The notes under the pieces are model-generated. The model searched no databases and had not been told where the DNA came from. It was given only the letters and a program-made list of their open reading frames with translations. Both the position numbers and the translations under genes were made by a program. 55,895 nt of DNA, taken from assembly GCA_015488885.1 (NCBI GenBank), contig WFMW01000072.1:1-55895 (forward strand). The letters are read 5' to 3'. Of the stretch, positions 15,104 to 16,223 are shown piece by piece. Origin of the DNA: Gammaproteobacteria bacterium. GTDB lineage: Bacteria > Pseudomonadota > Gammaproteobacteria > SZUA-229. Position 1 is the stretch's first letter; each line of letters starts with the position of its first letter.

Positions 15104-15535
15104 ATGTTTGGCAATAATCGCAATCAGCTCCGACAGATTTTTTTCGACTGCTGGCAACTAAAACAAAGTGGTCAGCCAGCCGATACTATGCAACAAACGA
15201 TTCTTCATATTATCGACCTGCACCCACAGTACCACGCGCTGCTCAATAATAAAAACTCACTGGAAAAAGATTTCCCGGTTGAAAATGGCGAAACCAATCC
15301 GTTTCTGCACATGAGCATGCATATTGCCTTACATGAACAGCTGAGCACAAATCGACCCTCGGGTATTAACACCATTTACCGGACACTCTGCCATCAATAC
15401 GGTTCTGCTCACGATGCCGAACATCAGATGATGGAATGTCTGGGTGAAAGTATCTGGCAGGCACAACGCAACCATACCCTGCCTGATGAAAATGCCTATA
15501 TCCATTGTTTAACAAAGCTCATCCGCAATATATAA
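15104..15535 (+). CDS. DUF1841 family protein
   Basis: 143 residues, cytosolic. The opening MFGNNRNQLRQIFFDCW and the central GETNPFLHMSMHIALHEQ followed by DRPSGI-like NRPSGINTIYRTL are the hallmark blocks of DUF1841, a small helical family found mainly in beta- and gammaproteobacteria. The conserved His residues (HMSMHIALHE, CHQYG, HDAEHQMMECL) could bind a metal, but that is a guess. No function is known. Confidence 0.88.
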   Translation: MFGNNRNQLRQIFFDCWQLKQSGQPADTMQQTILHIIDLHPQYHALLNNKNSLEKDFPVENGETNPFLHMSMHIALHEQLSTNRPSGINTIYRTLCHQYGSAHDAEHQMMECLGESIWQAQRNHTLPDENAYIHCLTKLIRNI

Positions 15536-15688: not shown

Positions 15689-15716
15689 GAACTTTACATC
15701 TCAGACACTTGTCTTT
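15689..15716 (+). promoter_or_regulatory. Possible ECF/sigmaE-type promoter of the HvfA-like gene
   Basis: TGAACTT with core GAACTT (15689-15694) and GTCTTT (15711-15716) are separated by 16 nt, close to the sigmaE-type pattern GGAACTT-N15/16-GTCTAA. Transcription would start near 15723, about 60 nt before the ATG at 15784. HvfA-type genes in other bacteria are often under ECF sigma factors. A small palindrome, CCCCTAAGGGG (15747-15757), lies in the leader. Similarity only. Confidence 0.35.
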
Positions 15717-15783
15717 GTTTGGGTAGTCAATGTACACTTAACACCCCCCTAAGGGGTAAAATATTTTGATCAGGAGAAAAACG

Positions 15784-16170
15784 ATGTCAACACGAACTAT
15801 GAAAAAAACCCTGTCTCTCGCCATGGGCGCTACTTTTGCTGCGGTCATTACTGCCTCACCAATAGCCAATGCTGACACCAATCCATTTGGCATGCAAAAG
15901 CTGAATAATGGTTATATGCAACTGGCCGATGCAAAATGCGGTGCCAAGATGATGAAAGAAAACGAAGGCAAGTGCGGCGCCAATAAAATGAAAAAAATGA
16001 AAATGGAACAGATGAAAAAGGAACATGAAGGCAAGTGCGGCGCGAATAAAATGAAAAAGAAAATCAATGGTAAATGCGGCTCAGGCAAGTGCGGTGCCAA
16101 TAAAATGAAAAGAATGAAAATGGAACAGATGAAAAAGGAACATGAAGGTAAGTGCGGCGCGAATAAATAA
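15784..16170 (+). CDS. HvfA-like Cys-repeat exported protein (candidate RiPP metallophore precursor)
   Basis: 128 residues from the ATG at 15784, which has a strong AGGAGA site. The Sec signal peptide ends near ANA-DT (30/31). The mature part begins with NPFGMQKLNNGY, then six cysteines at 52, 64, 85, 98, 103 and 124, all in KCG contexts; three of the motifs are EGKCG. The spacer MKKMKMEQMKKEHE is repeated and rich in Lys and Met. NPF...L..GY plus EGKCG repeats is the layout of HvfA precursors, whose EGKCG cysteines are changed by the MNIO enzyme HvfB with HvfC to copper-binding groups. Neither hvfB nor hvfC is in this window, so it is an orphan here. It could instead be an unmodified Cys/Met metal buffer. 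Confidence 0.72.
   Translation: MSTRTMKKTLSLAMGATFAAVITASPIANADTNPFGMQKLNNGYMQLADAKCGAKMMKENEGKCGANKMKKMKMEQMKKEHEGKCGANKMKKKINGKCGSGKCGANKMKRMKMEQMKKEHEGKCGANK
15967..16146 (+). repeat. Internal 63-bp duplication in the HvfA-like gene
   Basis: Bases 15967-16029 and 16084-16146 encode the same 21-residue unit (GKCGANKMKK... ending EHE). They differ at only two bases, GGC/GGT and AAA/AGA, which points to a recent in-frame duplication of the Cys-plus-spacer module. Confidence 0.85.
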
Positions 16171-16192: not shown

Positions 16193-16223
16193 AAAAAAAG
16201 CCCCGCACAAGCGGGGCTTTTTT
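16193..16223. terminator. Bidirectional rho-independent terminator
   Basis: A GCCCCGC/GCGGGGC stem with an ACAA loop is flanked by seven A on the left and six T on the right. It lies between the HvfA-like gene (plus) and groEL (minus) and suits both. Confidence 0.93.

Follow-up and report, generated by a model that had tools for sequence, protein, structure and literature searches.

A divergent HvfA-family copper-RiPP precursor gene separated from its probable maturation enzymes by a broken hvf cluster

Introduction

The captophorins or Buf_EGKCG-oxazolins, such as fontiphorin and gonophorin, are a class of EGKCG precursors matured by an MNIO and a DUF2063-RRE partner, and are recognized by 5-thiooxazoles on their cysteines (a shift of -4 Da per cysteine, with absorbance near 305 nm) and by copper binding. 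In the oxazolin system of nontypeable Haemophilus influenzae (NTHi), the HvfA precursor bears a Sec signal, KCG/EGKCG repeats and six modifiable cysteines in three AEGKCGEGKCG motifs, and one operon joins its gene to those for the HvfB-type MNIO, the HvfC partner and the DoxX protein HvfX. HvfBC converts HvfA cysteines to copper-binding 5-thiooxazoles, a finding that corrects the oxazolone/thioamide assignment, and favours HvfA still bearing its Sec signal (PMC13097082, PMC13419390). In hvf systems the precursor gene usually adjoins those for MNIO and partner, although such adjacency does not define the system: stand-alone precursor genes have been reported for the EGKCG class, and the suggestion has been made that they are served by enzymes from a different locus or by none (PMC12452194); EGKCG precursors in genomes that have neither MNIO nor partner are rare (PMC12452194).

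Here we analyse a 55,895-nucleotide stretch of gammaproteobacterial DNA (contig C72, hereafter the window), in which an earlier note made from the sequence had described an HvfA-like copper RiPP precursor without its enzymes. Judged from gene content and order, the window's hvfA is of the published stand-alone type with enzymes at a different locus, and the break that separated them is well resolved.

Results

The features of the locus are collected in Table 1. By inspection, the Sec-type signal of P0001, the hvfA product, comprises the n-region MSTRTMKK, a hydrophobic stretch and a cleavage site between ANA and D, and it aligns with the signals of relatives; besides this signal and its cysteines, P0001 contains NPFGMQKLNNGY. 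All six cysteines (residues 52, 64, 85, 98, 103 and 124) lie in KCG and three of them in EGKCG. When the 96-residue mature part was shuffled 100,000 times, no shuffle reached six KCG (maximum 4). The Sec signal, NPF...L..GY motif and six KCG cysteines, three as EGKCG, on which the earlier note was built are confirmed. Downstream, groEL is the convergent neighbour of hvfA. The inverted repeat between the two genes was read from the sequence and is absent from the terminator-scan listing.

Table 1. Coordinates of features at the hvfA locus in the window.
Feature	Position	Strand	Evidence
DUF1841 gene, upstream neighbour of hvfA, conserved in relatives	15104..15535	+	PF08897 E 6e-53; synteny, many loci
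ECF-sigma-like promoter element GAACTTTACATCTCAGACACTTGTCTTT, kept upstream of hvfA in relatives	15689..15716	+	motif search
Hairpin ACCCC-CCTAA-GGGGT in presumed 5' leader of hvfA	15743..15757	+	sequence
Ribosome binding site AGGAGA of hvfA	15772..15777	+	sequence
hvfA, HvfA-family (EGKCG/KCG repeat) copper-RiPP precursor, P0001, 128 aa; frame intact from ATG at 15784 to TAA at 16170	15784..16170	+	NF050137, orthologues
Sec-type signal peptide spanning residues 1-30, with cleavage predicted at ANA/DTNPF	15784..15873	+	inspection, alignment with family members
63-bp tandem repeat encoding EGKCGANKMKKMKMEQMKKEH units	15964..16167	+	TRF score 254, 3.4 copies
Inverted repeat GCCCCGC-ACAA-GCGGGGC with A and T tracts on its flanks, likely hvfA/groEL terminator	16200..16217	.	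sequence

We then assessed family membership. P0001 scored 41 bits against the NCBIfam HvfA-family domain model NF050137 (KCG repeat; E 1.1e-10, cut-off 19.5) and 34.8 bits against the strict HvfA equivalog NF050188, short of its cut-off of 95. Six precursors served as controls, five of them belonging to intact hvf clusters and the sixth to a genome that lacks MNIO; all exceeded the NF050137 cut-off and all failed the equivalog (27.9-54.2 bits), and because clustered relatives miss the NF050188 cut-off too, we do not claim the strict equivalog for P0001. Matches to P0001 at E<=1e-8 were found in 36 of the 54 genomes of its order when its own genome is counted (35 of 53 when it is not), the best HvfA-family orthologues share 53-65% identity with it, and the alignment with relatives spans the signal, NPFGM..L..GY and the KCG sites. 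A domain model exceeded, an equivalog missed and orthologues aligned thus mark P0001 as a divergent HvfA-family precursor. As read from its sequence, it is an ordinary member of the family in an unusual gene arrangement; NF050137, the orthologues and synteny support its earlier identification as an HvfA-like copper RiPP precursor, and the proposed comparison with HvfA profiles succeeded for the domain model and not for the equivalog. No Pfam family matched P0001 above cut-off, and the Buf1 bufferin domain PF10048 (DUF2282) was therefore not detected; weak matches to zinc finger and Sfi1 families were judged to be chance. With P0001 as query, a scan of named genomes yielded no relative, and the nearest HvfB proteins in a scan with the HvfB of the window's genome came from uncultured Gammaproteobacteria, Thiotrichaceae-like and similar MAGs.

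Neither an MNIO nor a DUF2063 gene was found beside hvfA in the window. The 72-contig draft assembly to which it belongs (100% complete, 0.25% contamination) contains exactly one MNIO, HvfB (NCBIfam NF003818, 431 bits, cut-off 360), and exactly one DUF2063 protein, the DUF2063-RRE partner HvfC (NF050145, 320 bits, cut-off 142), both on contig C17, where HvfX (DoxX; NF050144, 234 bits, cut-off 80) is also encoded. The genome search that the earlier note had proposed thus returned one enzyme of each kind, and its phrase 'without its enzymes' describes the surroundings of hvfA but not the genome. The hvfX-hvfB-hvfC genes occupy about 11.0-13.3 kb of C17 (G000:C17), in the order ccoI-ccoS-hvfX-hvfB-hvfC-small lipoprotein-like gene followed by hyp146 and TetR on the opposite strand, and no precursor gene was found inside the operon. 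We found no KCG precursor other than P0001 and no DUF2282 bufferin (PF10048) in the genome, leaving the lone HvfBC without another recognized substrate. Residues N175, D242 and H244, essential in NTHi HvfB (PMC13419390), correspond to N187, D230 and H232 in the HvfB of the window's genome when mapped via the 3BWW alignment, and by sequence its HvfBC looks functional.

In relatives, orthologous clusters (HvfB identity 66-84%) follow, with small variations, the order rnf genes-nth-DUF1841-hvfA-(FMN glutamate-synthase-like)-hvfX-hvfB-hvfC-hyp146-TetR-ABC transporter. The window's genome holds this order in three pieces: rnf-nth on C50, without DUF1841; DUF1841-hvfA in the window on C72, now beside groEL; and hvfX with the genes that follow it on C17, now behind ccoI-ccoS. 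Both neighbours named in the earlier note, groEL and DUF1841, are confirmed. DUF1841 is not an unrelated gene: in relatives it stands next to hvfA, and that is the ancestral arrangement. The genes on the far side of groEL (groES, fxsA and dsbD) are common to the window and its relatives, whereas hvfA does not lie by the groEL of relatives, indicating that the hvfA-groEL arrangement of the window is derived. Gene order thus indicates that the hvf cluster, together in many close relatives, is broken here between hvfA and hvfX, and that its enzymes sit elsewhere in the genome because it broke apart in the window's lineage.

DUF1841 also stands beside hvfA in distant Gammaproteobacteria (loci L144, L146, L154 and L173), and our literature search found no mention of DUF1841. 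A 500-aa FMN-binding glutamate-synthase-like protein, named from its sequence, is kept between hvfA and hvfX in the window's family, at loci L105, L106, L119, L122, L112 and L114. No close orthologue of this middle-gene protein was found in the window's genome; an FMN-binding glutamate-synthase-like protein on contig C16, considered as the displaced middle gene, has 44% identity and was judged a paralogue.

The motif GAACT-N15..18-GTC[TA]TT lies upstream of both hvfA and hvfX in the window's genome (GAAC-N17/18-GTCTTT), with the strict-form element GAACTATAAATCGGTTTTTCAGTCTTT (GAAC-N17-GTCTTT) 86 bases ahead of hvfX on C17. We take the GAAC and GTC boxes and their spacing to resemble an ECF sigma promoter. 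Of 88 hvfA upstream regions, 46 contain a looser motif, GAA(A)CT-N13..17-GTC (shuffle mean 0.6, maximum 3), and 24 contain the strict form (0.02 in shuffles), an enrichment that is descriptive only because the motif was picked after viewing those regions. The hvfX upstreams were checked after the motif had been chosen on the hvfA regions, and either form is present in 22 of 61 distinct hvfX upstreams, that of the window's genome included. Matching elements before hvfA and hvfX, of a motif that in relatives is strongly enriched ahead of hvfA and often present ahead of hvfX, suggest that both halves probably retained ancestral promoters and that the two pieces are probably co-induced. In Cupriavidus, copper induces the related gig operon, whose control by the ECF factor RpoQ is supposed but unproven (PMC10304878).

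Comparison of window positions 15735-15775 with the hvfA upstreams of L008, L011, L068, L077, L081 and L090 showed that in many relatives leader hairpins differing in sequence (CACCC..GGGTG, GCCAC..GTGGC, AGCCGCC..GGTGGCT) follow TAGACTCAG at an equivalent position. A hairpin whose sequence changes while its place stays suggests that structure close to the 5' end of the mRNA is conserved. Loci L031, L044 and L097 form a second hvfA class, in which the conserved element upstream is a different one, TGTAAGGAAT..GCGACTACC, and may be a further ECF promoter.

The core of P0001 has a Met fraction of 0.136; across 88 other precursors the median is 0.016, and two of the 88 equal or exceed the P0001 value. 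Nearly identical KMKKMKKEGKCG spacers (CGAEKMKKMKKEGKCGEGKCGANKMKKM) and a DUF1841 neighbour are found with the HvfA of a Thiohalobacter sp. MAG (L144), which, unlike the window, has hvfB, hvfC and hvfX directly downstream and keeps EGKCGEGKCG tandems. The Met/Lys spacers, earlier called unusual, are thus extreme in Met content, but they are not a new feature, since they also occur in an intact hvf cluster. P0001 has three EGKCG and a single KCGxxKCG tandem pair (KCGSGKCG, Cys98/Cys103), compared to medians of 6 EGKCG and 2 tandem pairs in relatives; four of its six cysteines are isolated and the Glu of EGKCG is missing at three of six. Unlike NTHi HvfA, P0001 has mainly single KCG sites, its spacers are long and Met/Lys-rich, and its enzymes are encoded at a separate locus; compared to the captophorins it has fewer tandem repeats, and the cluster from which it comes, still whole in many close relatives, has been split. 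Modification of AKCGA-type substrates has been reported once. FonBC modified a two-repeat substrate and left a one-repeat substrate unmodified (PMC13097082), and because Cys98/Cys103 is the sole tandem pair, modification of all six P0001 cysteines is uncertain and partial modification is plausible. The extent of EGKCG tandem repeat that HvfBC requires could thus be probed naturally with P0001.

Discussion

We favour, at a probability of roughly 0.83, the reading that P0001 is the hvfA product of a dispersed hvf system and is modified in trans by HvfBC from a separate locus, which the earlier note had offered as one alternative. Modification in trans is adopted here because a diffusible enzyme pair needs no gene adjacency. 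Ribosomally made P0001, its Sec signal still on, would be bound by HvfB-HvfC in the cytoplasm, and HvfB, a multinuclear iron oxidase, would turn at least some KCG cysteines into 5-thiooxazoles, after which modified P0001 would leave via Sec and buffer Cu(I) in the periplasm. The oxazolone/thioamide ligands named previously are outdated, as oxazolin is now assigned 5-thiooxazoles (PMC13097082, PMC13419390). The ancestral cluster would have split between hvfA and hvfX with both pieces retaining the ECF-type promoter element, and since both pieces are probably induced together, the pathway could operate in trans. The sequence comparisons show that precursor and enzymes belong to the hvf families, that MNIO and DUF2063 are each present in one copy, that the ancestral order is split and that the promoter elements match; from these we infer that P0001 is modified, how far, that it binds copper and buffers it in the periplasm, and that the two loci are co-regulated. 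A seemingly orphan copper-RiPP precursor may thus be explicable by a broken cluster whose halves retain matching promoter elements.

Less likely is a copper buffer of two chemistries, in which HvfBC in trans modifies only Cys98/Cys103 or another subset, with leftover thiols and Met-rich spacers acting as second, unmodified ligands. The window's lineage would then be on the way to an HvfA that no longer depends on modification, a direction suggested by relatives in which HvfB and HvfC are lost and HvfA is retained. Also unlikely is the reading that P0001 has drifted from HvfBC and is an unmodified thiol/thioether buffer whose Met/Lys-rich spacers and free cysteines bind Cu(I) directly. Its extreme Met fraction, its one tandem pair and the several relatives holding hvfA in genomes without MNIO or DUF2063 would suit such a buffer, but a functional-looking HvfBC is retained in a genome with no other recognized substrate for it, the promoter elements of hvfA and hvfX match, and the Met/Lys-rich HvfA of L144 sits within an intact cluster.

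We consider it very improbable that hvfA survives only as a decaying leftover of the cluster's break-up and that hvfXBC serves another, unrecognized substrate: although hvfA is detached from the operon, with expanded repeats and reduced EGKCG tandems, its frame, ribosome binding site, promoter element, signal peptide and NPF..GY segment are all kept, and the genome yielded no other KCG or DUF2282 precursor. Least credible is an assembly artefact, with C72 and C17 as chimeric contigs that hide a true order identical to the ancestral one. Relatives do show that order and the genome is a 72-contig draft, but two independent chimeric joins would be needed precisely at gene borders (hvfA/groEL and ccoS/hvfX), groEL-groES-fxsA-dsbD past the join is syntenic with relatives, and a third contig carries nth-rnf but no DUF1841. 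Were it true, the conclusion that HvfBC acts on P0001 would be stronger, not weaker.

Among the 46 precursor genes of the window's family, 20 lie within 6 kb of an MNIO gene, 14 have an MNIO elsewhere (some of these possibly at contig ends) and 12 sit in genomes that gave no MNIO hit. DUF2063 and MNIO were not found in four precursor-bearing genomes that are 95-99% complete (G003, G004, G005 and G023), of which G003 has a weak precursor match under the model cut-off. Such near-complete genomes, with HvfA and without MNIO and partner, provide a natural experiment on whether an unmodified precursor is functional at all. In G004 (L112, G004:C13) and G023 (L114, G023:C2), DUF1841-hvfA-middle gene-hvfX-hyp146-TetR is present with only hvfB and hvfC missing, and the hvfA of G004 retains its KCGEGKCG tandem repeats.
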